Assembly (NCBI GenBank): GCA_947501445.1
Contig: CANMVS010000011.1
Coordinates: forward strand, 1 to 64,000
Direction: 5' to 3'
DNA: 64,000 nt
From: an uncultured Rhizobiaceae group bacterium
GTDB taxonomy: Bacteria > Pseudomonadota > Alphaproteobacteria > Rhizobiales > Rhizobiaceae
Shown piece after piece: positions 6,975-62,069 of the stretch. The notes beneath the pieces were generated by a model that was not told the origin of the DNA, ran no database searches, and saw only the letters and a program-made list of their open reading frames with translations. The translations under genes and the position numbers were made by a program. Positions within the stretch are counted from its first letter, which is position 1. Every line of letters begins with the position of its first letter.

Positions 6975-7077
6975 TGGACCGTTTCACGTTTTGACAGAAA
7001 CGGGACAACGGTGTCGGCCTTTAGTTTTGTTGATGCATTCAGGTTTTGCCGATTCCGTCAAAACCTGAATTGCTCTA
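6975..7077 (+). repeat. 103-bp dispersed hairpin repeat, full copy 1
   Basis: Full-length copy in forward orientation. It contains a 7-bp stem CCGTTTC/GAAACGG in the first half and a 12-bp stem ATTCAGGTTTTG/CAAAACCTGAAT in the second half, and it ends GCTCTA. It lies 41 bases downstream of the threonine aldolase stop and just upstream of the usp start. Confidence 0.9.
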
Positions 7078-7118
7078 TGCAAGTGTAAGGAAAAACAGCG
7101 CCATGGCGTTGAGCTAGA

Positions 7119-8168
7119 TCAATTCAATTGCCCGACAAATTGCTCAACGTGTTGCCTTGTGGTTGCAAAACTGGTCACCAGACGGATAAGAACCTCATCC
7201 TTTGCCATACCATCTGCAACATTTTGCGGCGGTTTCCATTCATGAAACTGGGCACCCGCAGCAAGCATGGCCTCAGACCTTTGATGCGGAATGATTGCAA
7301 AAACCTCATTGGCATCAGCCTTCCAGGCCAGTCTGGCGTCTTGTGATGAGGTGATACCCTCTTGCAACATTTTAGACATGGCGTTGGCGTGGCTGGCCAT
7401 CTCAAGCCAAAGATCATCTTCAAAATAGGCTTCCAGCTGAGCTGAAATGAAGCGTGTCTTGGAAAACAGATGGGCAGCGCGTTTCCTTAAAAAAGGCATC
7501 TCCCTGGCCTTTTGAGGATCAAAGACCACCAGTGCTTCAGCACACCAGCAGCCGTTTTTTGTTGCACCAAATGACATGATGTCAACGCCGCGTCGCCACG
7601 TCATTTCAGCAGGGCTGATCTGTTGGCTGGCCAGAGCATTGGCAAATCGTGCGCCATCCATGTGCAGGGGCAATCCATGGGCCTTGCAAATGTTTGATAT
7701 TCTGTCGATTTCATCGGTTGAATAGACTGTGCCGATTTCACTGGCCTGGGTGATGCTGACCGCCATTGGCTGACCTGCGTGGATGAATTCAGCCGGAAAA
7801 CGTGCGATTTCGCGCTCCAGCAATGCGGGATCCAATTTACCGTTTTGCCCGTCAACCGGCGCCAGCCTTGCACCATGGGAGAAGAATTCCGGTGCCCCGC
7901 ACTCATCTTCGATTATATGGGCGCCCCGATGGCAAAAGGACACACCGCCGGGCCTGTTTAGTGAGGACAGCGCCAGTGAATTTGCCGCCGTTCCTGTTCC
8001 AACAAAAAAAACGGAAACTTCGCGCTCAAAAATTCTGTTGAATTGCGCTTCAATCTTTTTGTCGAGTGCGCTTTCCCCGTATGCGACGGAAAAACCCGAA
8101 GCATGACGTGAGAGCGATTCAGCAATTTTTGGATGAGCGCCAGCCCAATTGTCGGAGGAAAAATACAT
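7119..8168 (-). CDS. ltaE: Low-specificity L-threonine aldolase
   Basis: PLP-dependent enzyme of 349 aa that cleaves L-threonine or allo-threonine to glycine and acetaldehyde (aspartate aminotransferase fold, beta-eliminating lyase family). The start at 8168 is preceded by AAGGA six bases away and gives the family-typical N terminus MYFSSDNWAGAHP. The PLP-binding lysine is K204 in SFGATKNG. The HMDGARFANA motif (about 169-178), which contacts the cofactor through Asp and Arg, is intact. The length is normal for the family. It is a single gene on the minus strand, with a 103-bp repeat just after its stop. Confidence 0.92.
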   Translation of the reverse strand: MYFSSDNWAGAHPKIAESLSRHASGFSVAYGESALDKKIEAQFNRIFEREVSVFFVGTGTAANSLALSSLNRPGGVSFCHRGAHIIEDECGAPEFFSHGARLAPVDGQNGKLDPALLEREIARFPAEFIHAGQPMAVSITQASEIGTVYSTDEIDRISNICKAHGLPLHMDGARFANALASQQISPAEMTWRRGVDIMSFGATKNGCWCAEALVVFDPQKAREMPFLRKRAAHLFSKTRFISAQLEAYFEDDLWLEMASHANAMSKMLQEGITSSQDARLAWKADANEVFAIIPHQRSEAMLAAGAQFHEWKPPQNVADGMAKDEVLIRLVTSFATTRQHVEQFVGQLN

Positions 8169-8738
8169 GATGTTCCTTGGAGAATTTTTGATGATTTCCG
8201 GCATACATCGCACGAAAATGACGTTGGACGGAAGCCTCTTTGTCTTTGCAGCCCCGGGTTATTTTCCCGCGAAAACTGTCACATCGGCGAAATATTATGT
8301 CGTCAGGAACTGAATTTTGACAATTTACTGAGGCGCAGCGCGACAAAATTGCCTCAACCATCTTGCGACCTGCGTCTGTTTCTGGCATATGAGCAATATA
8401 GGACAGCTATGCTGACCTAATTACAGATTGAAGGTTTTCAATCAGTGCGCTGTCCAGGTGGCTTTGGTTTGCCACCAGGTAAATGGTCACACATCGTGTG
8501 GTGACCTGCGCCAAAGCGATTGCTGACAGGTGGGATTTTCGAAAATCCGCGCTGCGGCAGAAAGTTCGCACAAGGTCTGGTCTGGTCCCGATTTGCATTC
8601 GGCTCCAGCCATGCGGAATTCGGCCAACAACCCGAATTTGCAACGTGACAAAACTGTGTCGGCTGAAACTGCCGGGACAGGCAATCAGGTCGCCGCTGGA
8701 AGCCGGATGGTTTCAGCGCCATGACGGAAGGGATGAAG
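8169..8738. other. Divergent intergenic region between ltaE and gltB
   Basis: About 570 bases with no supported gene. It should hold the promoters of ltaE (minus) and gltBD (plus). A perfect 7-bp hairpin, GATTGAA with a 4-base loop, is at 8426-8443. I could not identify a confident -35/-10 pair or a recognisable riboswitch. Confidence 0.5.
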
Positions 8739-13550: not shown

Positions 13551-15005
13551 ATGGGTAAGGTAACTGGTTTTCTCGAAATTGACCGGCAGGTTGCCAAATA
13601 TCAACCGGCTTCTGATCGCGTCCGTCACTACCGCGAATTTTCACTTGCCATGTCTGACTCCGAAGTTGTCAAACAGGCGGCAAGATGCATGGATTGTGGC
13701 GTTCCCTTTTGCCACGGGCCAACCGGTTGCCCCATCCACAATCAAATTCCTGACTGGAATGATCTTGTCTTTAATGGCAACTGGGAAGAGGCAATCCGCA
13801 ATTTGCACTCAACCAACAATTTTCCGGAGTTTACCGGGCGCATCTGTCCGGCGCCCTGCGAGGAAGCCTGCACGCTCAATCTGGAAGATGTGCCAATTGC
13901 CATCAAAACCGTCGAGCAGGCGCTCGCCGACAAGGCCTTCGACATGGGCCATATTGCGCCTCAGCCTGCCACAAGAAAAACCGACAGGAAAGTCGCAATC
14001 ATCGGTTCCGGTCCGGCTGGAATGGCTGCTGCCCAACAGTTGGGGCGCGTCGGACATGACGTACATATATATGAACGCGAGAGCGCGGCAGGCGGGCTGT
14101 TGCGGTTCGGAATTCCGGACTTCAAGATGCAAAAACACCACATAGACCGGCGCGTTGCACAGATGGAGGGTGAAGGGGTAACATTTCACTATAATGTCCA
14201 GGTCGGCGTCGATGTGTCTGTTGATACGCTGCGCAATGATTTAGATGCAGTCCTTTATTGCGGTGGTTCGGAGAAACCACGTGACGCGGGTATTCCCGGT
14301 GCTCAACTGATCGGTGTTCATGATGCCATGCCCTATCTGGTGCAGCAGAACAAACGGGTGGCACGCGAGGATATAGCCTCTGTCGGATGGCCGTCGGAGC
14401 CAATACTGGCGGCAGCAAAACATGTTGTTGTGGTCGGTGGGGGTGATACGGCCTCCGATTGTGTGGGGACTGCCTTTCGCCAGGGCGCTGTCAAAGTGAC
14501 CCAGCTGGATATCCGCCCGCAACCGCCGGTGCATGAAGACAAGCTCGCCATATGGCCTTACTGGGCCACAAAAATGCGCACATCATCATCGCAGGCTGAG
14601 GGCGCCATACGCGAATTTCAGGTCGGGACGCTGGAATTTGTCGGGGAAAACGGTGTATTAACGGGTGTGAAATGCTGTCAGGTGGATGAAAAGCGTCGGC
14701 CGATTGCGGGAAGTGAATTCATCATCACGGCTGAACTTGCCTTTATTGCCATTGGATTTCGCGGTCCGCTTGAACAAGGGGTTCTGGCGGACGCTGGAGA
14801 TGGACTGCGTGTTGGTGTGGACAACCGTGGTTCGACATATATCGAAGCCAATGATCAGGATTATAAGACATCGATGGACAGGGTTTGGGCTGCCGGCGAT
14901 GTAAGACGCGGTCAGTCGCTGGTGGTCTGGGCCATTCGTGAAGGCCGACAGGCAGCGCATGATATTGACAGAACGCTGATGGGCAAGACGACACTTCCGC
15001 GTTAG
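13551..15005 (+). CDS. gltD: Glutamate synthase small subunit
   Basis: Beta subunit of GOGAT, 484 aa, which passes electrons from NADPH through FAD and two 4Fe-4S clusters to GltB. The cluster-binding cysteines are in ARCMDCGVPFCHG...GCPIHNQIPDW and CPAPCEEACTL (about residues 43-108). The FAD dinucleotide motif is IIGSGPAGMAAAQQL (about 150-164) and the NADPH motif is VVVGGGDTASDCVG (about 293-306). The length is usual for the family. Its TAG stop (15003-15005) coincides exactly with the first three bases of a truncated copy of the 103-bp repeat, so the repeat may have replaced the original 3' end. Confidence 0.96.
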   Translation: MGKVTGFLEIDRQVAKYQPASDRVRHYREFSLAMSDSEVVKQAARCMDCGVPFCHGPTGCPIHNQIPDWNDLVFNGNWEEAIRNLHSTNNFPEFTGRICPAPCEEACTLNLEDVPIAIKTVEQALADKAFDMGHIAPQPATRKTDRKVAIIGSGPAGMAAAQQLGRVGHDVHIYERESAAGGLLRFGIPDFKMQKHHIDRRVAQMEGEGVTFHYNVQVGVDVSVDTLRNDLDAVLYCGGSEKPRDAGIPGAQLIGVHDAMPYLVQQNKRVAREDIASVGWPSEPILAAAKHVVVVGGGDTASDCVGTAFRQGAVKVTQLDIRPQPPVHEDKLAIWPYWATKMRTSSSQAEGAIREFQVGTLEFVGENGVLTGVKCCQVDEKRRPIAGSEFIITAELAFIAIGFRGPLEQGVLADAGDGLRVGVDNRGSTYIEANDQDYKTSMDRVWAAGDVRRGQSLVVWAIREGRQAAHDIDRTLMGKTTLPR

Positions 15006-15066
15006 ACCGTCTCACCTGTTGTCAGAAGCGGAACACCGGTGTCGGCCTTTGATTTTGTTGAGCGAT
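15003..15066 (+). repeat. 103-bp dispersed repeat, 3'-truncated copy
   Basis: The first half of the repeat is present (TAGACCGT...GTCGGCCTTTGATTTTGTTGA) with several substitutions, and the second hairpin is missing. The leading TAG is the gltD stop codon. The fragment ends at the stop of the DUF459 gene on the other strand, so it fills the whole space between two convergent genes. Confidence 0.8.
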
Positions 15067-29704: not shown

Positions 29705-29804
29705 CGTCGATCCTCACTGTGTGTTGGGTTGCTCAATTGGCGGGCCGGGCAGCGCCGATGCTGCAATTTTCATCCAAACATGGAATATTATCAGCCTGTG
29801 GCAT

Positions 29805-29907
29805 TAGACCGTTTCACGTTTTTTCAGAAACGGGACACCGGTGTCGGCCTTTGATTTTGTTGATGCATTCAGATTTTGCCGATTCCATCAAAATCTGAAT
29901 AGCTCTA
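29805..29907 (+). repeat. 103-bp dispersed hairpin repeat, full copy 2
   Basis: Full-length copy, TAGACC to GCTCTA. Its second stem reads ATTCAGATTTTG paired with CAAAATCTGAAT. Relative to copy 1 one G-C pair has become A-T on both arms, a compensatory change that preserves the hairpin. It lies 72 bases downstream of the pabC stop. Confidence 0.92.
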
Positions 29908-29978
29908 GCGGTGCTCTTAAGCATAAACCTGCGCGGGATGGAAGGGCATCCATGTTGAATACCAGGTTCCACGGGCAA

Positions 29979-30620: not shown

Positions 30621-30641
30621 TTTATGGATGCCGTTTCAATA

Positions 30642-30689
30642 GGTGTTCTGGCTCAATCGGTGTTCCGGCTTAATCGGTGTTCTGGGCCG
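30642..30689. repeat. 17-bp tandem repeat at the pabB 3' end
   Basis: Units start at 30642, 30659 and 30676 with a 17-base period (GGTGTTCTGGCTCAATC, one or two changes per unit, third unit partial). The array spans the pabB stop codon (30670-30672) and the gap to pabC. It looks like a recent small tandem duplication. Confidence 0.75.
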
Positions 30690-39444: not shown

Positions 39445-39461
39445 GGCTTTTGCAAGGGGCA

Positions 39462-39564
39462 TAGAGCAATTCAGGTTTTGACGGAATCGGCAAAACCTGA
39501 ATGCATCAATAAAATCAAAGGCCGACACCGTTGTCCTGTTTCCGATAAAACGTGAAACGGTCCA
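39462..39564 (-). repeat. 103-bp dispersed hairpin repeat, full copy 3
   Basis: Full-length copy in reverse orientation (TAGAGCAATT at 39462 through CGGTCCA). Both hairpins are intact. It lies 18 bases past the pyk stop and includes the last 16 codons and the stop of the convergent alpha/beta hydrolase gene. Confidence 0.92.
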
Positions 39565-40552
39565 AATCAACGGGGTTTCCCGACAATTTGTCCAATGCAG
39601 CCAAACACAGATCGGTGGCATTGTAGTCCGGCTTGTGCCCGACACCATCGATATCAATCCATTGCGCCCCCGATATATCTGTTGCCAGCCCGGCGGAGTG
39701 CAGGTGTGAAGGGACAAGGCCGTCCTGTTGACCGCTGATGATAATCGTTGGCTTTTGAATGTTTGCATATTGCGCACAGGTTCGTTCGAAGTGGCGATAG
39801 AGGCCTGTAACGTCCCGTGCATTGTGGCGAAATGTCCGTGGTCGCAGGACCAGCGCAATTTTGGCCTCTTCCACATAGTTTTGCGGATAGGCACCGGGGC
39901 AAAAAATGCAACGCGCTACCGTTGTAATGCGCGCCAGGCCGATGGGCAGGGTCACCAGCCAGGTGAACACATGTCCGAGCACCGGGATTGATGCAATGGT
40001 GTAATGCAGATCAACCCCGCCACCTGGCCAGGGATGCGAAGCGGCTGACAGTAATAGCAGGCCGGCCACCCTGTTGGGTTTTTCCATCGCCAGATTGAGG
40101 GCCACCGCCCCGCCCAGAGAATGACCCACGATGATTGCCTGGTTGATTTTGTAATGATCCATGAGGGCGGCAATCGCACGTGCCTGTCCGTCCGGCGTGT
40201 CGTTGTCAGCAGGACCCCTTTGTGACCAGCCATGGCCAGGGCGATCCAAAAAGAGCATTTCAGCCTTGCCCGCCAAGCGCTGGCGGAACGCCGTCATTGG
40301 ATCCGCCAGGTTTCCACTGGCGCCGTGAATGAAAACAACAGCAGGGCGATCCGTCTGGGCAGGGCCGGGTACATGCACGGCGTGCATTTTGTATCCACCG
40401 ATATCGACGATGCGACCGATGGGTGGATAGCGCGCAGCAATGCGCCTGGCCCATGTACAGGTGAACAGGGCCAGAATGACGACGGCAATCGCCAATAAAA
40501 TCAGGGAGATTTCAAGTATGGACATTAGCATGGCAGAAATATCAAATTTCAT
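39515..40552 (-). CDS. Membrane-anchored alpha/beta hydrolase with repeat-derived C terminus
   Basis: 345 aa. An N-terminal membrane helix (about 10-35) is followed by an alpha/beta hydrolase fold: oxyanion-loop FIHGASGN, LDRPGHGWS, nucleophile elbow GHSLGG (Ser145), the acid in ISGQQDGLVP and the base in DGVGHKPDY. The substrate is unknown. The final 16 residues (LDRFTFYRKQDNGVGL) and the stop are encoded by a copy of the 103-bp repeat, and the natural C terminus probably ended around LDKLSGNP. The start overlaps the stop of the TPR gene by 11 bases, so the two are co-translated. Confidence 0.87.
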   Translation of the reverse strand: MKFDISAMLMSILEISLILLAIAVVILALFTCTWARRIAARYPPIGRIVDIGGYKMHAVHVPGPAQTDRPAVVFIHGASGNLADPMTAFRQRLAGKAEMLFLDRPGHGWSQRGPADNDTPDGQARAIAALMDHYKINQAIIVGHSLGGAVALNLAMEKPNRVAGLLLLSAASHPWPGGGVDLHYTIASIPVLGHVFTWLVTLPIGLARITTVARCIFCPGAYPQNYVEEAKIALVLRPRTFRHNARDVTGLYRHFERTCAQYANIQKPTIIISGQQDGLVPSHLHSAGLATDISGAQWIDIDGVGHKPDYNATDLCLAALDKLSGNPVDLDRFTFYRKQDNGVGL

Positions 40553-41165: not shown

Positions 41166-41228
41166 GCCATAAACATATGGCGCACACGCCGGACGTCAAA
41201 GGCAAATTTTGGTGAACAGGGTATCTTC

Positions 41229-41249
41229 AAAAAACGGAACGAACCGTTT
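41229..41249 (-). terminator. Intrinsic terminator of the L36 gene
   Basis: On the minus strand AAACGG and CCGTTT form a 6-bp stem around a 6-base loop and run into six T. It starts a few bases after the L36 stop codon. Confidence 0.75.
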
Positions 41250-41253
41250 GTGA

Positions 41254-41379
41254 TTAACCCTGACGTGCCTTGAAGCGCGGATTCTGCTTGTTGATGATAT
41301 ACACACGGCCTTTACGACGTACCAGACGGTTTTCGCGATGACGTGCTTTGAGCGCTTTAAGCGAATTTTTGATCTTCAT
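41254..41379 (-). CDS. rpmJ: 50S ribosomal protein L36, zinc-independent form
   Basis: 41 aa, [18 protein letters not shown] then a basic tail [21 protein letters not shown]. This is the alphaproteobacterial/YkgO-type L36, four residues longer than the classical 37-aa form and lacking its zinc-binding Cys/His set. It is a component of the large ribosomal subunit. Single gene followed by a clear intrinsic terminator. Confidence 0.95.
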
Positions 41380-41441
41380 TGTTCCGGACCCATGGTCAGT
41401 GCCCGTAAAGCCAATTTGACCACCGGGCAGATAATAACCAA

Positions 41442-41464
41442 AAGCGCGCCATCAGACGCGCTTT
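41442..41464 (-). terminator. Terminator hairpin downstream of purK
   Basis: An 8-bp stem AAAGCGCG/CGCGCTTT around an 8-base loop lies about 100 bases past the purK stop, with TTTTGG on the minus strand and CTTTCTTTGTT on the plus strand. It probably ends the purEK transcript. Confidence 0.6.
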
Positions 41465-41561
41465 CTTTGTTGGTGTTGCGTTTAAACGCATGAGAAAATT
41501 CTGTCAACCGCAGGCGCCCAATTAGCTGTCAATCATCGCGGTAATAATTGCCATACAGGCG

Positions 41562-42644: not shown

Positions 42645-42646
42645 TT

Positions 42647-43141
42647 TCAGTTCTCTTTTGAAGGTTTGTCTGCAACGCCGTCTGTCCGTTCCTGTCGCCA
42701 GGCATCCAGGCGCCGTGCGGTCGGTTCGTCTGACAGGGCCAATACAGCGGCCGAAAGAAGAGCCGCATTGATTGCGCCGGCCTGGCCAATGGCAAGCGTA
42801 CCAACCGGAATACCTGCGGGCATCTGCACAATGGACAAAAGGCTGTCCTGTCCGGACAGGGCTTTTGACTGGATGGGCACGCCAAAGACCGGCAATGGTG
42901 TCATGGCAGCGGTCATGCCCGGCAGATGAGCGGCACCACCCGCACCGGCTATGATTGTCTTGAAACCATTGCTGCGGGCCGACTTGGCAAATTCCACCAT
43001 TCGATCGGGTGTGCGATGGGCCGAAATGATGAGCGTCTCGTAACCGATCTCCAGAGAGTCGAGCGTCTGAGCTGCAAATTCCATTGTTGGCCAATCTGAC
43101 TGGCTACCCATGATAATGGCCACCGGTGGCTTCGTACGCAT
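42647..43141 (-). CDS. purE: N5-carboxyaminoimidazole ribonucleotide mutase
   Basis: 164 aa class I PurE, which moves the carboxylate of N5-CAIR to give CAIR. The active-site segments are [12 protein letters not shown] (about 9-20), [10 protein letters not shown] with the catalytic histidine (about 39-48), and [12 protein letters not shown] (about 65-76). The octameric enzyme is usually about 160-175 aa. First gene of the purE-purK pair, with coupled translation. Confidence 0.96.
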
Positions 43142-43191
43142 GTTTTTCCCCGTCTCGATTGAATCCGTTGCTTTGTCGATTCGTGTGCCTA

Positions 43192-43395
43192 TCAGGCAAT
43201 TATGTCGGGAATGATCTGATCCTCGATTTTTGACATTTTGTCTTTGAGTGCCAACTTTTTCTTCTTCATGCGCTGGACGCGCAATGCATCACAACCGACG
43301 GAAATCATCGCTTTGATTGCGGCATCAAAGTCTTCATGTTCCTGACGCATGCGGGCGGCTGATAACCGCAATTCTGTCTGATCCTGATCCGACAT
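43192..43395 (-). CDS. YdcH family (DUF465) protein
   Basis: 67 aa, mostly helical and charged. The pattern [11 protein letters not shown]...[21 protein letters not shown] is the DUF465/YdcH signature, in which a lysine-rich turn separates two helices of a coiled-coil hairpin. Function unknown. It is divergent from a second protein of the same type starting at 43614. The opposite-strand arrangement is described under findings. Confidence 0.88.
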
Positions 43396-43613
43396 GCCCT
43401 ATTCCCATTGTAAATTTGACGTGGTCTGCGAACCAAAAAAATACGCAGCCTTTCAGCTTCGTCTACCACTTTGTGGTTTTGCACAAAACAGCAAAGATTA
43501 AAAGTTATCCACGCTCTTGAATTTTATCTTCGACAATCGCCATATTTTAATGGCAAACTGATAAACTGCTACGACACGACGTGGCAGACAAAGCAAGGAA
43601 AAGGAGTTGTTCA

Positions 43614-43811
43614 ATGGCAATTTATGCTCGTCTTGAAACGCTGGAAAGAAAGCACGGCGCACTGGAAGATGAACTCCATTCGGCTCTTAACCAACCATCG
43701 GCAGACGACACAACGATCAACGACCTCAAACGACGAAAGCTGCGGCTTAGGGATGAGATCGAACGATTGCGAGGAACGGTTCCCGATTCAACCAAAATGG
43801 AATTGAACTGA
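43614..43811 (+). CDS. YdcH-like (DUF465) protein
   Basis: 65 aa from an ATG at 43614, eight bases after AAGGAG. It has the helical hairpin LETLERKHGALEDELHSAL...NDLKRRKLRLRDEIERLRG, the same two-helix layout with a basic turn (KRRKLRL) as the minus-strand YdcH gene 220 bases away. Function unknown. Confidence 0.87.
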   Translation: MAIYARLETLERKHGALEDELHSALNQPSADDTTINDLKRRKLRLRDEIERLRGTVPDSTKMELN

Positions 43812-44083
43812 TTTTCTAATCTGCGGATCCCGCAAATGTGGGTTCTGTTGATGCACGATGGGTAGGAAAGAATGGGCATGCCGACCACCCGAAATCTGGT
43901 TGGCATGCTCCGATAGTATAAGAGCACCCGGGGGTGGGAGCTCACATTGATCGGTGGAAAACAGACGATTTCCACGTGGATTTTTTTGAGATTTTTCCCA
44001 ATAGAAAAAGCAGTTTTTGCCGCCAACGGGCTTGCAGGTGCAGGTCCGCCAATGACGGCGACAGGCGATACACGGCAGCGTCT

Positions 44084-45727
44084 TCAGAGATTGCGTGCCT
44101 GCTCCCGTAAAACAAACTTTTGAATTTTGCCGGTGGAGGTTTTGGGCACGTCCTGAAAAATAACGTGGCGTGGGCATTTGAAGCGAGCCAATAGCGCACG
44201 GCAATGCTCGATTATCTGATCCTGTGTCGCGGTGTGTCCGGCCTTTAACTCTACAAATGCACAGGGTGTTTCACCCCATTTGTCATCGGGCCTTGCCACA
44301 ACGGCAGCGGCCTGAATGGCGGGATGTTTATAAAGCGCATCTTCGACTTCGATCGAGGAAATGTTTTCTCCACCGGAGATTATGATGTCCTTTGACCGGT
44401 CCTTCAATTGAATGTAGCCATCAGGGTGCATGACACCAAGGTCGCCGGAGTGAAACCAGCCACCGGCAAATGCCTCTGCCGTAGCAGCAAGGTTCTTCAG
44501 ATACCCCTTCATGACAATATTGCCGCGAAACATGACCTCACCAATGGTTTCACCGTCAGCAGGAACCGGTTCCATGGTTTCAGGATCGCGGACTGAAAGG
44601 TCTTCAAGCGCATTGTAGCGAACGCCTTGCCTGGCCTTGAGCGCAATACGCGCCCGGTTATCCATTGCATCCCACTCGCGGTGCCACTCATTGACCACGG
44701 CAGGACCATAGGTTTCTGTCAGGCCATACAGGTGCACCACTTCAAAACCGGCTTCTGCCATTTGTGCAAGCACCTGTTCAGGCGGTGGCGCTGCAGCCGT
44801 ATTGAATGATACCGTCTGGTCAAAATCACGCATTTCGTCCGCCTTCGCATTCAATAGTGTGGACATGACGATTGGCGCGCCGCAAAGGTGTGTTACCCCA
44901 TGATCTGCCAGGGCGTCATACATGGCGCCGGCCCGTACCCAGCGCAGGCACACATGGGTTCCGGCAACGACAGCCAAGGTCCAGGGAAAGCACCAGCCAT
45001 TGCAATGAAACATGGGCAGTGTCCACAGATACACAGGATGCTTTTGCATGCCCGATGCAACAATATTGGAATAGCCCATCAGGGCTGCACCACGATGGTG
45101 ATAGACCACACCCTTGGGATTTCCGGTGGTGCCGGACGTATAATTGAGTGAAACAGAATCCCATTCATCATCGGGCAATGCCCAGTCAAATTGCGGATCA
45201 CCTGCCGATACAAAGGCCTCATAATCCTGCGTGCCGATGCACGCACCTTTTGCAAAGGGTGTATCGGTGCCGAAATTCGGATCATCATAGTCAATCACAA
45301 GTGGTGATACATCAGCCAGTTCCAGCGCTTCTTCGCATACGGCTGAAAACTCCCTGTCAACGATCAGAATTTTTGTATTTGCGTGGTCCAGCTGGAAGGC
45401 CAGCACCGCCGCATCCAAACGGGTGTTGAGCGAGTGCAATATTGCACCCGTCATTGGCACACCATGGTGCGCTTCAAGCATGGCTGGCGTATTGGACAGC
45501 ATCACAGAGACAGTGTCACCCTTGGTAATGCCATGGGCACAAAGGCTCGATGCCAATTGGCGTGAGCGCGCGTAAAATGTCTTGTAATCCATGGCAAGGG
45601 CACCATGAATGATCGCCGTGTGATCCGGATAGACAGCCGCGGCACGGGCCAGATGCGAGAGCGGCGACAAAGGCTGATAGTTGGCAGCATTGCGGTCCAA
45701 ACCGGTCTCAAATGGGTTGCCAGTCAT
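44084..45727 (-). CDS. AMP-dependent acyl-CoA synthetase
   Basis: 547 aa from an ATG at 45727 preceded by GGGAG. It belongs to the ANL superfamily. The P-loop is YTSGTTGNPKG, the A5 motif LYGLTETYGP, the A7 motif HSGDLGVMHPDGYIQLKDRSKD and the A10 lysine lies in KTSTGKIQKFVLRE. It activates a fatty or other carboxylic acid to its acyl-CoA. The chain length is not readable, but members of this clade include medium-chain and 3-methylmercaptopropionate ligases. Single gene on the minus strand. A full 103-bp repeat lies upstream of its start. Confidence 0.92.
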   Translation of the reverse strand: MTGNPFETGLDRNAANYQPLSPLSHLARAAAVYPDHTAIIHGALAMDYKTFYARSRQLASSLCAHGITKGDTVSVMLSNTPAMLEAHHGVPMTGAILHSLNTRLDAAVLAFQLDHANTKILIVDREFSAVCEEALELADVSPLVIDYDDPNFGTDTPFAKGACIGTQDYEAFVSAGDPQFDWALPDDEWDSVSLNYTSGTTGNPKGVVYHHRGAALMGYSNIVASGMQKHPVYLWTLPMFHCNGWCFPWTLAVVAGTHVCLRWVRAGAMYDALADHGVTHLCGAPIVMSTLLNAKADEMRDFDQTVSFNTAAAPPPEQVLAQMAEAGFEVVHLYGLTETYGPAVVNEWHREWDAMDNRARIALKARQGVRYNALEDLSVRDPETMEPVPADGETIGEVMFRGNIVMKGYLKNLAATAEAFAGGWFHSGDLGVMHPDGYIQLKDRSKDIIISGGENISSIEVEDALYKHPAIQAAAVVARPDDKWGETPCAFVELKAGHTATQDQIIEHCRALLARFKCPRHVIFQDVPKTSTGKIQKFVLREQARNL

Positions 45728-45823
45728 TTTTTCTCCCTCGCCCGCATCGGGGCCCTTAGCATCTGGTGTTATTCCACACCGTGATTGCACAGCAAAGCTC
45801 TGCTGCGATAAACCTCAGCCTAT

Positions 45824-45926
45824 TAGACCGTTTCACGTTTTGTCAGAAACGGGACAACGGTGTCGGCCTTTGATTCTGTCGATGCATTCAGGTCTTGCCG
45901 ATTGCGTCAAAACCTGAATAGCCCCA
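45824..45926 (+). repeat. 103-bp dispersed hairpin repeat, full copy 4
   Basis: Full-length copy, TAGACCG to GCCCCA, with one mismatch in the second stem (GGTCTTG against CAAAACC). It overlaps the last codons and the stop of the TSUP gene on the minus strand. Confidence 0.9.
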
Positions 45927-46689
45927 GTGCACCTGCGCCATCTGCCACCAGTTTGCAGGCCGTCAGCAGGATCATCACATACATCAGCGGGTAAAATACT
46001 TCCGGGTTCATGCGTTTGACCAGCCACGCACCTGAAAAAGTTGCGAGTGGTGCCAGTGGCAATAATATTGCCGATGTTTTCAGATTGCTCGCGTCAAATT
46101 GCCCGAGTGCAAAATAGGGCAGAAGCTTGATTGCATTCACTACGGCAAAATAACGGGTGCTAGTGCCTGTATAGATCTTGGGATCAAGACGCAGCGGTAG
46201 GGCGTAAATCTGAAAGGGCGGTCCGCCCGCGTGGGTTACGAAGCTGGTAAAACCTGAAATTGTTGCCCAGAATGTGCCTTTGATGCGGTTTTGCGGCCTG
46301 GGCAGCAGTGTTTTGCCGCGCGTCGCACGGTAGCGGTCCACCACATAACGAAGCACAAAAAAGATTGCTACAAGACCGACGATCAGGCGGGTCATGCCGG
46401 TGGTGACGAGCGATGCCGTCAGCCAGCCTATACCAATGCCGATAATTGCGCCAGGCAACATCACTTTCAGCGTTGTGGTGTCATTATGCTTGCGCCAGAC
46501 CCACAAGCCTGCCATGTCCATGACAATCATGATAGGCAACATGATTGCTGCGGCCTGAACCGGAGACATGACCAGTGCCATGATTGGAACGCCCATCAGC
46601 GCCAATGCACCGCCCAGGCCGCCTTTTGACAGGCCAACCAGAATAACTGCAGGCACTGCAGCGGCGAAAAAGATAAATTCGGTGGGCAT
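45907..46689 (-). CDS. TSUP family transporter (TauE/SafE-type)
   Basis: 260 aa with seven or eight membrane helices in two halves. The family motif in the first half is GLSKGGLGGALALMGVP and in the second half GFTSFVTHAGGPPFQIYALPL. TSUP proteins export sulfite or sulfonates or related anions. The substrate cannot be told here. The ATG at 46689 is chosen because it yields the usual short N terminus; its ribosome site is weak. The final residues GLFRF and the TGA lie inside a full copy of the 103-bp repeat. The gene is divergent from the ThiE-like gene. Confidence 0.9.
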   Translation of the reverse strand: MPTEFIFFAAAVPAVILVGLSKGGLGGALALMGVPIMALVMSPVQAAAIMLPIMIVMDMAGLWVWRKHNDTTTLKVMLPGAIIGIGIGWLTASLVTTGMTRLIVGLVAIFFVLRYVVDRYRATRGKTLLPRPQNRIKGTFWATISGFTSFVTHAGGPPFQIYALPLRLDPKIYTGTSTRYFAVVNAIKLLPYFALGQFDASNLKTSAILLPLAPLATFSGAWLVKRMNPEVFYPLMYVMILLTACKLVADGAGALGLFRF

Positions 46690-46799
46690 AGTGTAGTGGT
46701 TGATCCCGTGACGCGCGTGGTTTATCGGGAAAAGCAACAAAAAGCGAGAGCGGAAATCTTTGTCAGAACCGCTGGCGCAGCCACAAAGGAGAGGCAACG

Positions 46800-47453
46800 A
46801 TGTCAGATGTGGAAAACAGGTGCCGGCTGGTTCTGGTTACGCCGGAGTTTTCCGACCCGGATGCCGCCGCTACACAGCTTGGTGATGCCTTGCGCGGCGG
46901 TGATGTTGCTTCGGTCATCATACCGCAATATGAGTTGGGTGAGCAGGCCTATCAGACATTGGTGGAAAAGCTTGTGCCTATCATTCAAAAGGCCAATGCC
47001 GCAGCACTGGTCGCCGGTGATAGCAGAGCCGCGGCACGCGCCGGCGCGGATGGTTTGCACATCGACGGCACTGTGGAATTGCTGCAGGATGCCATCGAGC
47101 GTTTCACGCCTGATATGATTGTTGGCGGAGGCCGGGCCAAGGAACGGCATGTGGCGCTGGAAATTGGTGAGTTGCGTCCTGACTATGTTTTCTTCGGCAA
47201 GATTGATGGTGACATCAAGCCCGAGGCGCACAAAAAGAATATTAATCTGGCTGAATGGTGGGCTTCAATGGTGGAAATACCCTGTGTTGTCATGGCTGGC
47301 CATTCTGTTGCATCAATTGTCGATGTTGCTGAAACGGGAGCGGAATTTGTCGCCTTGCGCAATGCGGTGTTTGGGGAACCGGAAAAAGCCGCCCTTCTGG
47401 TTGCCGAAGCCAATGCGTTGCTTGACGAAAAAGCGCCACGGTTTGGGCGCTAA
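46800..47453 (+). CDS. ThiE-like (thiamine phosphate synthase superfamily) protein
   Basis: 217 aa with TIM-barrel features of ThiE/TenI and a good GGAG site. It starts RLVLVTPEFSDPDAAATQL, with AGADGLHIDGTVELLQDA aligning with the ThiE GVHLGQxD region. Several substrate-binding signatures look altered. The phosphate loop normally ending T-x-T-K reads FFGKIDGDIKPEAHKKN, and the IGGI turn reads VVMAGHSVASI. It may therefore not make thiamine phosphate. Directly followed, without a gap, by a Sel1-repeat gene, so the two are in an operon. Confidence 0.82.
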   Translation: MSDVENRCRLVLVTPEFSDPDAAATQLGDALRGGDVASVIIPQYELGEQAYQTLVEKLVPIIQKANAAALVAGDSRAAARAGADGLHIDGTVELLQDAIERFTPDMIVGGGRAKERHVALEIGELRPDYVFFGKIDGDIKPEAHKKNINLAEWWASMVEIPCVVMAGHSVASIVDVAETGAEFVALRNAVFGEPEKAALLVAEANALLDEKAPRFGR

Positions 47454-48545
47454 ATGACCCGCATGAAAAAATTTCTCCTGCCCACAACCATCCTGTTGAC
47501 GATGGCAATACACACTTCTTTTGCCGTTGCGGCACAGGAACTGCCTGTGGAGGGGAGCGCGCAAACAGATTTTTCGACGTCGCCATTCATAATACAGCCG
47601 CAAGATCTTGGACAGCCGCAGCAAATCGGTGAGGAAGAAAATGATCCTGCTGCCACAAGAGTTCTGCCGGGACTTCAGGATGTTGAGCCCGAGCCAACAC
47701 CCGATACGATAGATGTCGGCGATGCAGCTTTTGGCGCATTTCAACGCGGCCGATATCTGACTGCGTTCAATCTGGCCCTGCCGAGGGCAAAGCTGGGCGA
47801 CCCGGCAGCCCAAACGCTGGTGGCGGAAATCTACGCGCGGGGACTAGGGCTTGCGAAGGACCTCAAGGAAGCCGCTGTCTGGTATGCCGCTGCCGCCGAA
47901 GGTGGTGATGTTGCTTCGCAACTCAAATTTGCTTTGATGCTGCTCGAAGGACGATATGTTGAGGCCGATCCGGAACGGGCAAAAGAGATGATGCGGTTGG
48001 CAGCTGACGCTGGAAATTCTTCTGCCCAGTTCAACTATGGCCAGTTGCTGATTACCCAACAACCCGGCAAGGAGGGTGTACAAAAAGCCTTGCCTTATCT
48101 GACCCGGGCCGCAGACAATGGTATTGCCGATGCGCAATTCGCGCTGGCTCAGATTTATGGCTTTGGTGTTGGTCTTGAAGAAGCCGATCCCTCTACCGCG
48201 CGCGTCTGGCTCATTCGGGCAGCGCGATCAGGCTATGATACCGCACAGCTTGATCTTGCGGTCTGGCTTATCGATGGTATTGGCGGCGATATTGACTATG
48301 AATCCGGTTTCGGCTGGATGCGCCGCGCGGCCAACTCAGGCAACGTCATGGCGCAAAATCGTCTGTCGCACCTCTATCGCCACGCGATTGGAACACGACC
48401 AGACCCGATTGAAGCGGCCAAATGGTACATTCTTTCGCGCCGTGCGGGCCTGGAAGACCGGGGCCTTGATGATTTTTTCCAAGGCTTGACAGCAGAAGAG
48501 CAAAAATCCGGCATCGAAGCTGCGAATAACTTCCGCATACGTTAA
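47454..48545 (+). CDS. Secreted Sel1-repeat protein
   Basis: 363 aa. A signal peptide ends near AVAAQE (residue 27; an ATG at 47463 would shorten it by three). From about residue 95 there are about six Sel1-like repeats of 35-38 aa, e.g. PAAQTLVAEIYARGLGLAKD, ASQLKFALMLLEGRYVEADP, SAQFNYGQLLI, DAQFALAQIYGFGVGLEEAD and AQNRLSHLYRHAIGTRPD. Sel1 solenoids act in protein contacts, often with envelope or signalling partners. The ATG follows the stop of the ThiE-like gene at once, indicating coupling. Confidence 0.9.
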   Translation: MTRMKKFLLPTTILLTMAIHTSFAVAAQELPVEGSAQTDFSTSPFIIQPQDLGQPQQIGEEENDPAATRVLPGLQDVEPEPTPDTIDVGDAAFGAFQRGRYLTAFNLALPRAKLGDPAAQTLVAEIYARGLGLAKDLKEAAVWYAAAAEGGDVASQLKFALMLLEGRYVEADPERAKEMMRLAADAGNSSAQFNYGQLLITQQPGKEGVQKALPYLTRAADNGIADAQFALAQIYGFGVGLEEADPSTARVWLIRAARSGYDTAQLDLAVWLIDGIGGDIDYESGFGWMRRAANSGNVMAQNRLSHLYRHAIGTRPDPIEAAKWYILSRRAGLEDRGLDDFFQGLTAEEQKSGIEAANNFRIR

Positions 48546-48557
48546 GGCCCGTTAAAA

Positions 48558-48576
48558 TTCGGGATTGTGTCCCGAA
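48558..48576 (+). terminator. Hairpin downstream of the Sel1 gene
   Basis: Perfect 7-bp stem TTCGGGA/TCCCGAA with a 5-base loop, 13 bases after the stop. No T tract follows, so a rho-dependent end or 3' protection is as likely as intrinsic termination. Confidence 0.45.
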
Positions 48577-48650
48577 GCGATCTGACGGGATTTGGCAACC
48601 ATCGTTTCACGCGTTGTTGAATAGGGTGCATGTCCTGTCTTCTTATGAAG

Positions 48651-48720
48651 CCTGAATGTATCAACACAATCAAAGGCCGACACCGTTGTCCTGTTTCTGT
48701 CAAAACGTGAAACGGTCCGG
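48651..48720 (-). repeat. 103-bp dispersed repeat, truncated copy
   Basis: Reverse orientation. About 70 bp are kept, from CCTGAATG through AACGGTCCG. One arm of the second hairpin is lost. It lies between the convergent Sel1 and EamA genes. Confidence 0.85.
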
Positions 48721-48782
48721 TCGAACAAATCTGACCCAATTGACACCCCATGCCTGATCCTAATAGGTCTTGGGTCTCTGCT

Positions 48783-49718
48783 CTAAGTTTGTGATGCTGA
48801 GCCCGTCGCTGCGATTGGAATATTGGCCGCCGGGGTGCGTTTGGCCGGTGTCAACAGGATCGCACCCAGGATAAGAATACAGGCAATCCATTGTACGGGT
48901 CCGATCGCCTCTGCAAACGCCAGCCAGCCGATAATGAAATTTGTCGGCAGTTCTGCGCTACTGATCATCGACGTGCGGGCCGGACCGACCACCGGCGCAT
49001 TGGTGAGGTAGAGCAGCTGGGGTATCAGCGCGGTAATCAAGGCGATACCTGCAACGAACCACCAGCCACCTGGGGCACTTGGGACAAGCGAATGAAAATG
49101 GGAAGCCACAACCAGTGGTGACAACCCGATCGTTGCGCCGAATGCGAGGGTTGCGATCCGTGTCACCGGTGGCAGTACCACCAGTTTGCGGGTCACGATA
49201 TTGACGGAATAGCCGAAACTCAATGGCGCGCTCAGCGACATAAGCAAAGCCGGGAGCTGATCACCTGACACAACAGAGGGTGGTTGTGCCAGAACGGCGG
49301 CTGCCAGAATAATGGCAGCGGCTGCACAGGCGCGTTTTCCTGGTCTATCGCCATAAAAAAGCCAGCCAATCAAAAGCGCAAAAACCGGAAACGTCATGTA
49401 AAGAACGGCGACACTTGAAACAGGTGCAACCTCAAGGGCGCGGGCATAACCAATCCAACCAAGACCGACACAAAAGCCAGCGGAAAGTCCCCAGCAGATT
49501 GGAACCCATAGCTGGCGGTGTGTGATCAGCGCAGGAAACAGGACTGCTGCTGTAATGGCATAACGATAGAATTCCACTGCATAGGGCGGGATGCCAACAT
49601 CGGTCAGGCTTTTGGTGAAGAACGGCATTGTACCGTAAAAAAGCGCTGCAACCAGTAGCAGTATCGTCGCCGTTTTTTGACTGGCTTTGCCAGCGAATAC
49701 ATTAAGCAAAAATGTCAT
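48783..49718 (-). CDS. EamA/DMT superfamily transporter
   Basis: 311 aa inner-membrane protein with ten predicted helices in two EamA halves, e.g. ILLLVAALFYGTMPFFTKSL, SSVAVLYMTFPVFALLIGWL, and in the second half GPARTSMISSAELPTNFIIGWLAFAE. The drug/metabolite family includes amino-acid and metabolite exporters. The substrate is unknown. The start at 49718 gives the shorter N terminus; a frame reaching 49763 is possible, and neither has a strong ribosome site. Single gene, next to the AT-rich region preceding the RTX gene. Confidence 0.88.
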   Translation of the reverse strand: MTFLLNVFAGKASQKTATILLLVAALFYGTMPFFTKSLTDVGIPPYAVEFYRYAITAAVLFPALITHRQLWVPICWGLSAGFCVGLGWIGYARALEVAPVSSVAVLYMTFPVFALLIGWLFYGDRPGKRACAAAAIILAAAVLAQPPSVVSGDQLPALLMSLSAPLSFGYSVNIVTRKLVVLPPVTRIATLAFGATIGLSPLVVASHFHSLVPSAPGGWWFVAGIALITALIPQLLYLTNAPVVGPARTSMISSAELPTNFIIGWLAFAEAIGPVQWIACILILGAILLTPAKRTPAANIPIAATGSASQT

Positions 49719-50270: not shown

Positions 50271-52367
50271 ATGAGCGAAGATGTCGTAATAGTTGCACCG
50301 GGCAATGAACATATTTTCATTTTCGATGGCACCAGCGTCAATACAACCATTGAGGGCTTCAGTCCGCTCATTCATTCCATTGATCTTACGTGGTTCGGAT
50401 TACGAAGATCGCAGGTGCAGATTGACCCGACAACCAACTCCATCACCTTTGCGGCGATAATTCTGACGCTTCCGCTGGTTGATTTTGACACGTTTGACCG
50501 GGCAAGCCTTGTTGGCCTTGGAGACGATTTTAGCGGCACGGAACTCGACGAAACGATCAACGGAACAGATTTTAATGATGAGATACATGCCGGTGGCGGT
50601 GATGATATTGTCCGTGGTCGTGCCGGCGACGACCTGATATATGGCGATGAGGGCAATGATCGACTGTTCGCCGATGCTGGTAACGACACTGTCTATGGCG
50701 GGATCGGAAACGACAAGGTCTATGGCGGTGATGGCAACGATAGTCTGCGCGGCGATGAAGGCGATGATACCGTGCGCGGCGGCGATGGCAATGACACCCT
50801 GCATGGAGAAGCCGGTAAAGACAAATTGTACGGCGGCGATGGCCGCGACATTCTGTACGGCGGCGACGGCGATGATATCGTGCATGGCGGTGATGGAGCA
50901 GACGATTTATACGGAGGCGCCGGTGCCGACAAGTTGTATGGTGGTGACGGATTCGACTGGATTATTGGCGGGGAGGGTGAGGATCGGCTGTACGGCGGCA
51001 ATGACACGGACTTTATATTTGCCGAAAATGGCGATGACCGGGCTTATGGCGGTGCCGGCAATGACTTTGTCTATGGCGAAGAGGGCAATGATTTGGTCAG
51101 AGGCGGCGATGGCGATGACAGATTGCAGGGTGATGCCGGTGATGATCGCCTGCGTGGTGACAACGGTAATGATTTACTCTTCGGCGGTAACGGGTCCGAC
51201 AAACTTTACGGTAACGACGGTAATGATCTCCTTTATGGCAATAGCGGGGCCGACAAACTCTACGGTGGTAATGGAGATGATGTCCTCTATGCAATCGATG
51301 GAACTGTCAGCACCAATTTGACCGACTTAACACTGGCAGAGGATTATTCGGCTACTGTCGATTTCAAATATTCACGCGGTGTCGACCAATCGTCACTTGG
51401 CGTTTATAAAATTGCTCAAGACGGAACGATCTACGATGTTGATATCGTCTTTGCCAGTGCATCCGGCTCCGGTGTGGCGGATCCGGACATCCCCGGGGGC
51501 AGCTCCTACACGCTTGATGTTCTGTCCGGAGAACGGCTTGGCTTTTTCATTGTTGGCAATGCATGGAAGCTGGGGGAAGAAAACCAAACCAATCTGACCA
51601 TGGAGGGTGCCCAGTATGAATTGCGCAATCTGCAGGGCGAGGTTGGCAATGTCGATAACAATGAACCGACACAATTATGGCGTGTCGGAGAAACACCTGC
51701 AGACGATGTGTTGATTCTGTCGTCGCTCGATTCTCAAACCTATCACTCGGTCGCCACTGCGGAGTCTGGCTATTCCAGCAACGGTGATAATGTGCAGCAC
51801 ACCAAAAGCACCGCAGACCTGGCAGGAGGTGAGATAGAAATTGCCTTTGAAGACAGTCCCGGCGGCGGCGATAATGATTTTAATGATGTCGTTATCACTG
51901 TGGAAATTGGTCAAAAGAACCTGCTGACCCTACCCGGCCTGTTCTGGAATGGCGATGAACAGGATACGCATGTTCTTCAAGGTGGTGCCGGAGATGATGT
52001 ACTGATTGGTGCCTCCGGAAACGATTTACTCTTTGGTGGGTTGGATGATGATGTTCTAAATGCCGGTGCCGGTGATGACGTGCTTCGTGGAGACGGCGGT
52101 TCCGACCTTATGCTCGGGGGGGATGGCAAGGACATATTTTTGTTCAAGATGGGTCAACAGGCAGCGCTTGGTGTTGAGGCGACAGATACAATCGCAGATT
52201 TCGTAAGAGGCGAGGATGTTCTGAAATTCACCAAAACCGGAAATAATATTGAATTTTCTGATGTCCAGATCGATGGCAATACCATATCCGTCGGTGATTA
52301 TATTCACATCAAGTTGGGCGAGGGCATTGCCAGCCAACTCACCGCTGACGATTTTCTGTTTGTCTAG
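50271..52367 (+). CDS. RTX calcium-binding protein with DUF4114-like insert
   Basis: 698 aa, acidic and glycine-rich. After an N-terminal region without signal peptide (1-95), tandem nonapeptides of type GGxGxDxLY fill about residues 98-345. A non-repetitive segment (about 345-560) contains SPGGGDNDFNDVVITVEIG, which resembles the DUF4114 signature. A second short RTX block (about 565-615) and a C-terminal region ending TADDFLFV follow. RTX repeats fold into a calcium-bound beta-roll outside the cell, and an uncleaved C-terminal signal normally directs type I secretion. No ABC/HlyD/TolC secretion genes adjoin it. The gene is preceded by an AT-rich region and a strong promoter. No catalytic domain is seen. 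Its TAG stop falls in a remnant of the 103-bp repeat. Confidence 0.92.
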   Translation: MSEDVVIVAPGNEHIFIFDGTSVNTTIEGFSPLIHSIDLTWFGLRRSQVQIDPTTNSITFAAIILTLPLVDFDTFDRASLVGLGDDFSGTELDETINGTDFNDEIHAGGGDDIVRGRAGDDLIYGDEGNDRLFADAGNDTVYGGIGNDKVYGGDGNDSLRGDEGDDTVRGGDGNDTLHGEAGKDKLYGGDGRDILYGGDGDDIVHGGDGADDLYGGAGADKLYGGDGFDWIIGGEGEDRLYGGNDTDFIFAENGDDRAYGGAGNDFVYGEEGNDLVRGGDGDDRLQGDAGDDRLRGDNGNDLLFGGNGSDKLYGNDGNDLLYGNSGADKLYGGNGDDVLYAIDGTVSTNLTDLTLAEDYSATVDFKYSRGVDQSSLGVYKIAQDGTIYDVDIVFASASGSGVADPDIPGGSSYTLDVLSGERLGFFIVGNAWKLGEENQTNLTMEGAQYELRNLQGEVGNVDNNEPTQLWRVGETPADDVLILSSLDSQTYHSVATAESGYSSNGDNVQHTKSTADLAGGEIEIAFEDSPGGGDNDFNDVVITVEIGQKNLLTLPGLFWNGDEQDTHVLQGGAGDDVLIGASGNDLLFGGLDDDVLNAGAGDDVLRGDGGSDLMLGGDGKDIFLFKMGQQAALGVEATDTIADFVRGEDVLKFTKTGNNIEFSDVQIDGNTISVGDYIHIKLGEGIASQLTADDFLFV

Positions 52368-52388
52368 CGCAATTTGGGTTTTGACGCA
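52365..52388 (-). repeat. Remnant of the 103-bp repeat at the RTX stop
   Basis: TAGCGCAATTTGGGTTTTGACG matches the start of reverse-oriented copies (TAGAGCAATTCAGGTTTTGA...) at 19 of 22 positions. The rest is lost. The TAG serves as the RTX stop codon. Confidence 0.55.
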
Positions 52389-52661
52389 TTGATAAATGCG
52401 GGAGAGCGGCTTTGATTGGGTTGCTTTCCTGCAATTTGCTTTAAACAGTTTGGTGTGGCGGCTGCCTGTCGCGATGATGTCGTGTATGGCCGGCTAGAAT
52501 GGCAGCCAGACACCACTTGATCAATTCTGATCCGCCAATTCAATAGAATGAATTGGGTTGGCGCCCTGACGAACCTGCCAACAAACACCCAACGGGCTTG
52601 CATATGCGGGCTTTTTGTGTTCTTGAAACGCCGATTTTACAGTTTAGCGGAACTTGCTCCC

Positions 52662-54138: not shown

Positions 54139-54651
54139 GATATCTGCGAACCTGGACCGGTTCACGTTTTGTCAAAAACAGGACAAGGGTGTCGGCCTCT
54201 GATTTTGTTGATGCATTCAGATTGTGCCGTTCCCGTTAAAGCCTGATTTGCTTTTATGAACCCCTTGTCGGACTTGCGCGCGCATGGCGCACGCCACAGA
54301 TAAGATTGCCCGCTGTGAGGTCGAATGGAACATTTTCAGCGGCAACACTGCTAAAGGAGCCAGTCGACGGCACGATTTTGACGAATTATGCGCTAATTGA
54401 CATATACCCGGCACATTGTTGCACTTCTTTATGGTCTGCTATTTCCATTTCTCCTTGATTTTGCTTATTTACACGTGCCTAGTTTGGTTTGGCCTTGTTC
54501 GGGTTGGGGAACTTTGAGACGAGGTTGATTGTGTATCTGGCGATTGACAGATTATAGTCAGCGTTAAAACATTTTTGGGGAATTCGTCCGCTCGGTGACA
54601 TCTGGTGATGTTGAGTGCGACGTAAATGACAAAGGGTAGGGACCGCCGCCT
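54139..54651. other. Intergenic region between suhB and the proton-channel pair
   Basis: About 510 bases with no supported gene. The first part holds a diverged copy of the 103-bp repeat, the middle is T-rich. TTGACA boxes occur at 54399-54404 and 54544-54549, the second followed 15 bases later by TAAAAC, so it is a weak promoter candidate for the next operon. Confidence 0.45.
54153..54255 (+). repeat. 103-bp dispersed repeat, full but diverged copy 5
   Basis: Full-length and forward, from TGGACCGGTTCACG to TTGCTTTT. Both stems carry several mismatches, making it the most decayed of the full-length copies. It lies 15 bases past the suhB stop. Confidence 0.85.
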
Positions 54652-60950: not shown

Positions 60951-60992
60951 TCCGGACCGTTGTCCCGTTTCTGACAAAACGTAAAACGGTCT
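60951..60992 (-). repeat. 103-bp dispersed repeat, truncated copy
   Basis: Reverse orientation, about 40 bp kept (CCGTTGTCCCGTTTC...GTAAAACGGTCT), which is the first hairpin only. It ends three bases before the DUF1465 stop codon. Confidence 0.75.
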
Positions 60993-60995
60993 CGG

Positions 60996-61520: not shown

Positions 61521-61730
61521 GCGCCGTTGCCCCGATACTCATCTTTTATACACCAGCTGTTACAGCCTTCAAGTCGACGGTCGTCACAACCGATCGCCTG
61601 ATCTGGTTTTACACTGATGCCTCAGATTGTTTTACGCAAGCCAATTCTTAAGGAAGGGTTAACGCCCAGGGGGCTGCGATAACCATATTCGGTCGACGGT
61701 ATGGATTGTCCCCAGAAAACATTTATTTGC

Positions 61731-61840
61731 AAAAAAAAAGAGCCGCATGGCGACTCTCAGAAGTTTAACAGGGAGGCATCAAACCCGATGACATGGGCCA
61801 TCCGGTCCGAATCCAGAAACTCTGGATATCAACAATAAAG
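61731..61840 (-). ncRNA. Candidate trans-acting small RNA with CCUCCC loop
   Basis: Read on the minus strand from about 61840 it has a perfect stem TCCAGA/TCTGGA with a 3-base loop (61812-61826). Then GGTTTGA and TTAAACT (61762-61785, two G-U pairs) enclose a 10-base loop TGCCTCCCTG exposing CCTCCC. A terminator stem AGAG-CGC/GCG-CTCT (61739-61757) runs into nine T (61731-61739). An open CCUCCC loop is the anti-Shine-Dalgarno feature of several alphaproteobacterial sRNAs (alpha-r14/AbcR or CUCKOO-type). TATAAG at 61847-61842 is a plausible -10. The 5' end is inferred. Confidence 0.6.
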
Positions 61841-61966
61841 ACTTATAAAGCTTAATGTAGCGTTAACAGTGACCATAAAATTAACAATTATTGGTTCTGC
61901 TAAGGTGTCGTTAAGCAGTTTTTCCAGGCTTTGAGATCATCGGTGAGTCAAAAGATTCGCGGCAGC

Positions 61967-62069
61967 CAGACCGGTTCACATTTTGTTGGAAACGGGACAA
62001 CGGTGTTGGCCTCTGGTTTTGTTGATGCATTCAGGTTTTGCCGATTCCGTCAAAACCTGAATTGCTCCA
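61967..62069 (+). repeat. 103-bp dispersed hairpin repeat, full copy 6
   Basis: Full-length copy with an intact 12-bp second stem and one mismatch in the first. It ends GCTCCA two bases past the autotransporter stop codon (62072-62074). Confidence 0.9.

Follow-up and report, generated by a model that had tools for sequence, protein, structure and literature searches.

The question raised by this locus is what the short, hairpin-forming repeat scattered through the window (the whole stretch of 64,000 nucleotides analyzed here) is, and how it comes to lie at the ends of genes. An earlier note had described six full copies of a 103-bp unit with two stem-loops each, three truncated copies and a remnant, had read a compensated base pair as a sign of selection for structure, and had considered a REP-like or terminator-like element likely; it suggested counting copies in this genome and its close relatives and examining an alignment for covariation. 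We find all six full copies in place, each with both stem-loops, and the remnant at 52365 is indeed a right-end remnant. The conserved unit is somewhat longer than described, at approximately 105 bp (105 positions, YTAG to CTAR), with conservation dropping to background outside it on both sides. Two of the truncated copies (15003 and 48651) are also confirmed, and the third, at 60951, turns out to be a 43-nt mini-element carrying both short ends, which brings the window to a total of six full copies, two truncated copies, one 43-nt mini-copy and one remnant (Table 1). Genomes, contigs and loci carry the labels G, C (C1, C2, C4, C50) and L in what follows, with G000 being the source genome.

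Table 1. Copies of the putative MITE in the window, with strand and associated features.
Feature	Position	Strand	Remark
Copy 1, full	6974..7078	+	GANTC at 7051-7055
Truncated copy with left end	15002..15061	+	terminal TAG serves as stop codon of gene 13551-15005
Copy 2, full	29804..29908	+	GANTC at 29881-29885
Copy 3, full	39461..39565	-	GANTC at 39484-39488
Predicted hydrolase ORF, 3' end within copy 3	39515-40552	-	overlap approximately 50 nt
Copy 4, full	45823..45927	+	contains the 3' end of TauE-family ORF 45907-46689 (-)
Truncated copy with left end	48648..48720	-	
Right-end remnant	52364..52393	-	CTAG includes the TAG stop codon of RTX gene 50271-52367
Copy 5, full	54152..54256	+	diverged, without GANTC
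Mini-element of 43 nt, short ends CGAGACCGTT...AACGGTCCGG	60952..60994	-	adjoins the stop of a DUF1465 gene
Copy 6, full	61966..62070	+	GANTC at 62043-62047

Mini-elements of approximately 43 nt were seen at four places (C4:101374, C4:102890, C2:366491 and the one in the window), each with a left end resembling CTAGACCGTT, a right end like AACGGTCTAG and an interior corresponding to positions 1-38 of the full unit. The interval between the DUF1465 gene and copy 6 also holds an Rfam match to the alphaproteobacterial sRNA BjrC1505 (window 61733-61873, minus strand; 53.1 bits, gathering threshold 50). Elsewhere, at C2 ~149580-149660 (L026), a second palindromic, CTAG-bounded element of approximately 75 bp (CTAGTGT...ACACTAG) directly adjoins a right-end fragment of the repeat and possibly represents a second IS630-type MITE family.

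Our analysis indicates that the repeat is very probably a MITE of the IS630/Tc1-mariner type, one that would be moved in trans by an ISRel6-like rhizobial IS630 transposase. The repeat has terminal inverted repeats (TIRs), a right end matching that of IS630 elements, a TA duplication at one empty site, a coincidence with stop codons and a bias toward intergenic DNA. Its movement by a transposase encoded elsewhere, and the selection that would then have shaped its distribution, are what we infer from these features.

The genome-wide count proposed in the earlier note was carried out with a profile over 1.664 Mb of the 6.82-Mb source genome (24%). The search returned 198 raw hits, including reverse readings of the self-complementary hairpin 2, and removal of 22 hits left 176 distinct copies, of which 124 are full, 30 are right-end pieces, 21 are left-end pieces and 1 is an internal piece. 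This corresponds to a density of 106 copies/Mb, or approximately 720 copies in the whole genome by extrapolation. Full copies differ from the consensus at 1 to 21 of 98 positions, with a median of 7. Relative to gene calls made in this analysis (82% coding), 133 of the 176 copies overlap no called gene, compared to 12% of random 100-bp placements, and a single copy has 90% or more of its length within a gene, compared to 78% of random placements. The placement between genes or at gene 3' ends that had been claimed from the window (where copy 3 overlaps such an end) is thus also the placement found on this larger scale.

The kind of gap matters as well. Among the 123 full copies flanked by a gene on each side, convergent gaps are enriched (44 copies vs. 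224 of the 1701 intergenic YTAR sites) and divergent gaps are depleted (14 vs. 478), with tandem gaps accounting for the remaining 65 copies and 999 sites (chi-square p 7e-14). There is no consistent bias in the orientation of copies relative to the replication strand. In the interval C1:100000-300000 the minus strand carries 18 of the 19 full copies, and other contigs differ.

Target sites have the form YTAR/CTAG, and the terminal TA of the repeat forms part of a called gene's stop codon in 26 of the 124 full copies. The coincidence involves 27 gene ends (25 TAG and 2 TAA), compared to 0 to 4 gene ends at other offsets within 60 nt. If all YTAR sites were used equally, approximately 15.5 such copies would be expected (266 of 2124 sites, or 12.5%, these being stop-codon sites plus other intergenic YTAR with element ends left unmasked), and the observed 26 exceed this with a binomial p of 0.006. 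From gene calls alone, insertion into an old stop codon and truncation of a gene look alike, save at the one empty site described below.

With the two flanks of each of the 124 full copies joined and used as queries, we obtained four spanning alignments, three of them within the query's own neighborhood and one a clean empty site. Here the filled site at C2:357180-357284 has a paralogous empty counterpart near C2:359360, 2.2 kb away, where the paralogue ends in ...GACACAGCATTAG with no insert at the corresponding point. The sequence is CAT-TA-[element]-TA-G where the site is filled and CAT-TA-G where it is empty, which means that the target was a TTAG stop codon, that TA was duplicated and that the stop was retained. 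Since the flanking paralogues are 79% identical, the gene duplication that produced them is old. End-to-end correlation of the TA pairs over all 124 copies gave no signal, so the TA duplication depends on this single empty site. IS630 itself reportedly inserts into the TA of CTAG. The inclusion of stop codons in the YTAR target, together with the tolerance of insertions in 3'-3' gaps, explains the gene-end placement.

The ends of the repeat point to a candidate mover. The left 30 nt match the reverse complement of the right 30 nt at 23 of 30 positions, a value reached in none of 20,000 shuffles (maximum 20), and relatives of the repeat in other genera score 22, 21, 20, 18, 17, 15 and 13 of 30. 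Full-length IS of 1053 bp found in G186 and G322 have TIRs that resemble these ends; compared to the right end of the repeat, the left and right ends of the G186 element (L317) agree at 25/30 and 27/30, and a 26-nt blastn match (25/26) spans the last transposase codons and the stop. We extended the comparison to 12 IS (L317, L300, L328-L332 and L335-L339; ten plasmid-borne and two genomic, eleven belonging to one group and the twelfth being ISRm2011-2). Against the right end of the repeat, IS left ends score 20-27/30 across all 12, and IS right ends score 21-27/30 in 11, with ISRm2011-2 at 14/30; the left end of the repeat scores 18-24/30 against IS ends, with the right end of ISRm2011-2 at 13/30. 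For a background, known copies were masked in the source genome; of its 95,161 TA-anchored 30-mers, 42 score at least 18, 9 score at least 20 and the maximum is 25, where the top 30-mers may themselves be undetected remnants of the element. The transposase of the matching IS belongs to the IS630 family (NF033545; PF13358 DDE_3), and 570 plasmid records, most of them from rhizobia, contain DNA relatives of the IS; in 61 of these records at least 80% of the query is covered, and one is annotated as ISRel6 family. The repeat and the ISRel6-like IS630 elements thus have their terminal sequence and TA-centered ends in common; they differ in that the IS is approximately 1053 bp long with a transposase gene, while the repeat has no gene and a different middle, whose 34 bp lack a clear IS counterpart.

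With these ends in mind, an ISRel6-like transposase would bind both imperfect 30-bp ends and excise the element, which would then enter a TA within YTAR, with CTAG favored, and duplicate the TA. Because the consensus starts with G on both strands, an element entering a stop codon in YTAR context would regenerate TAG, such that gene ends would act as harmless docking sites. Insertions within genes and in divergent promoter gaps would be purged, and the intergenic, gene-end pattern would be what remains. The GANTC in the loop of hairpin 2 would be the GAATC of an IS630 left end.

We searched 394 Rhizobiaceae genomes with the consensus, scoring two candidates per genome (absences are valid to that depth), and found a match in 23 genomes from 16 of 109 genera. 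In 7 of these 23, what matched positions ~77-105 was an IS right end and not a repeat. A frame ending ...GYASVKT-stop lies within the IS-end match at L263, L267, L269 and two Mesorhizobium loci, near-identical DNA is present at L265, L266 and L272, and L270 (G314) appears broken. The source genome yields one IS630 fragment (56 aa, 39%) and five matches below the cut-off, none with matching ends. Its congener G002, which also carries the repeat, has IS630 fragments and a degraded remnant and no element with matching ends; its sole IS630 transposase above the cut-off lies at a contig edge (C50), is 26% identical to the query and gave no TIR pair. Of 30 IS630 loci, 20 were inspected for their ends, 13 of these coming from seven repeat-bearing genomes (draft assemblies) and none of the 13 having matching ends; the IS630 copies of G157 have ends that differ (6-8/28). 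An autonomous element with matching ends in the same genome, a usual although not strict trait of MITEs, was therefore found in neither G000 nor G002, and the proposed mover is a candidate put forward on the strength of shared ends rather than of a MITE and a matching IS co-occurring in one genome.

Within the genus, the search of close relatives gave a divided answer. The consensus of 25 copies from G002 is identical to that of G000 (14 of the 25 were picked by similarity, and the other 11 give the same consensus save at target-site positions 1 and 3), with orthologous proteins of the two genomes at 78% identity (median of 87). The six other congeners (G001, G003-G007) gave no repeat match with 150 candidates scored in each. 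These six genomes are nearer to G000 by pyruvate kinase (86-91% vs. 85% for G002), and five of the six are also nearer by the median across window genes. Among named organisms, Pararhizobium arenae has the closest pyruvate kinase, at 84%. When insertion sites were compared by gene-pair synteny, 9 of 66 conserved pairs held a copy in G000, and two of the nine had a differently placed or oriented copy in G002 as well, leaving no insertion site in common. Given the same consensus and no common sites, the same master probably populated both genomes once they had separated, either by horizontal transfer or by being retained in active form in the two lineages. The consensus of the window element gave no blastn match to plasmids even at E 10; a 109-nt relative matched 497 plasmid records, which means that the plasmid search works at such a length.

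It is also important to consider whether the host has put the element to use. The GANTC in the hairpin-2 loop is present in the consensus and its density in elements is 5.33/kb, compared to 1.98/kb for intergenic DNA outside them and an overall 1.44/kb; a RAMA-domain match, one each, was found in G000 and G002 (control positive only in Caulobacter), RAMA being a domain of CcrM. PF18284 as a search for CcrM gave no match, its control being silent in Caulobacter too, and PF18755 as a CcrM probe had a positive Caulobacter control. These observations would fit recognition of GANTC by CcrM/GcrA as a cell-cycle mark that the element disseminates, a secondary use compatible with MITE origin. We consider such use unlikely, as the motif is intact in 71 of 124 full copies, its columns are conserved no better than neighboring columns, and the loop of an R. 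leguminosarum RIME-like repeat lacks it. Inverted repeats with a GANTC loop at 80 named loci (27/1415) show no enrichment over control motifs. A simple source for the motif is offered by the IS630 left ends, where a GAATC at position 24 coincides with the loop GANTC in 12/12 IS and is joined at 35 to 37 by an inverted GATTC as the second site, also in 12/12 (right ends 0/12). Because the 12 IS are interrelated, their GANTC pairs do not count as 12 separate events, and the inverted pair could serve for protein binding instead of as a methylation signal.

The hairpins themselves could suggest a transcribed regulatory RNA or an intrinsic terminator selected at gene 3' ends. Folding is strong on both strands (z of -4.1 and -4.4), convergent gaps are enriched, and in tandem gaps the opposite orientation is the commoner one (43 vs. 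22, p=0.0125, uncorrected for multiple tests). Covariation separates the two helices: within the source genome, helix 2 has 9 compensatory double changes vs. 2.8 expected (p=0.002) and helix 1 has 2 vs. 1.8 expected, and between genera (17 sequences) all 15 cells altered on both sides lie in helix 2 and none in helix 1. The 15 both-side changes compare to 5.2 in shuffles (0 of 500 reach them), with few independent events beneath. RNAalifold, given 72 copies, returned a structure without any pair, so model R1 was built from the sequence only. The earlier argument from a compensated pair to selection for structure is therefore weaker than claimed, being supported for helix 2 only. Positions 65-75 and 80-105 both match the IS right end, and hairpin 2 seems to consist of two terminal-repeat copies facing each other, a build that may alone hold its arms alike.

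The remaining evidence makes an RNA or terminator function improbable. On one strand, 1 of 124 copies has a T-rich tract 3' of hairpin 2, and on the opposite strand 0 of 124 do; none of the 35 terminator-like sites in window positions 29001-49000 falls within the four copies there, so the intrinsic terminator is rejected and with it the terminator-like character proposed for the repeat. The median divergence of 7/98, the absence of covariation in helix 1, the failure to find the repeat in 6 of 8 genomes of the genus and the lack of any site in common with G002 also argue against an RNA selected in place.

A MITE of an IS5-group element (IS427/IS711-like), which would also duplicate TA in YTAR, seems similarly improbable. 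A YTAR site contained in one Bru-RS1 is used by IS711, which was found inserted there (PMC3163539), and the window element has YTAR ends; its right end, however, agrees at up to 27/30 with the IS630 ends compared here, including the last transposase codons. The REP-like character once proposed, that is, a REP/BIME-like palindrome moved via its hairpins by a Y1 (RAYT/IS200-like) transposase, accords with the hairpins, extragenic placement and high copy number and is nevertheless rejected as very improbable, given the ~30-bp TIRs, the TA duplication and the lack of association with Y1 transposases (PF01797: no match in G002, a single weak and broken one in G000, and 1 to 7 in five of the six congeners without the repeat, G007 having none).

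The IS630-type MITE can be set beside known repeat families. By the account of PMC2229807, CIR elements (CcrM-associated intergenic repeats) of Caulobacter and Brucella are intergenic, approximately 110 bp long and made of two independent stem-loops and a linker, with GANTC at one apical loop and TA at the ends; this 2007 review gives them no TIR, an unknown TSD and a mobility needing more information. Compared by description only, the window element shares the two hairpin arms, linker, TA ends and length of ~110 bp, has a loop GANTC in its consensus and in 71 of 124 full copies, and differs from that account in its imperfect TIRs and TA duplication (PMC2229807). A precedent for attributing such a repeat to IS630 is RUP of pneumococcus, a 107-bp MITE credited to an IS630 element from its ends and TA target, with another host and IS and without the two-arm layout, by which the same review contrasts CIR with others (PMC2229807). 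The Bru-RS1 and Bru-RS2 elements of Brucella, described as palindromic and 103 and 106 bp long in PMC10800456, are short palindromic elements of similar length, again likened to ours by description.

A RIME-like repeat of 108 bp, found in a Mesorhizobium MAG (G015/L012), allows a comparison of sequence. It occurs in 497 plasmid records (347 Rhizobium, 73 Sinorhizobium), and it is presumably RIME1, to judge by its length and hosts. Its right end agrees with an IS630 left end at 28/30, and two identical R. leguminosarum copies agree with an IS630 right end at 27/30. The IS630-like right end is thus shared with the window element, and the left end differs from it: RIME-like left ends match neither their own right ends (12-13/30) nor IS ends (11-16/30), so extending the IS630 origin to them hinges on the right end. 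The proposed resemblance to RIME1 and Bru-RS holds, at the level of RIME/Bru-RS-type repeats, for architecture and right-end sequence, and membership of either family would be putative. In the open-licence literature we found no link of such repeats to IS630.

A wider reading would take all two-hairpin GANTC repeats of Alphaproteobacteria (the window element, the RIME-like repeat and, by extension, CIR and Bru-RS) to be IS630 MITEs, with the CcrM site being the cell-cycle gate of the parent transposon. We offer this tentatively and regard it as doubtful. The gating part is based on the two left-end GANTC, approximately one helical turn apart and upstream of the transposase gene in 12/12 IS. 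Dam methylation gates IS10 in a comparable manner. If true, the post-replication methylation state would restrict the times at which the IS630 transposase is made or binds.

The TIRs, TA duplication and IS630-type end provide a concrete, testable mover for the CIR-type architecture. Reading the repeat as an IS630 MITE accounts for its gene-end placement and offers a simple source for the loop GANTC, and CcrM-gated transposition becomes testable in ordinary rhizobia.
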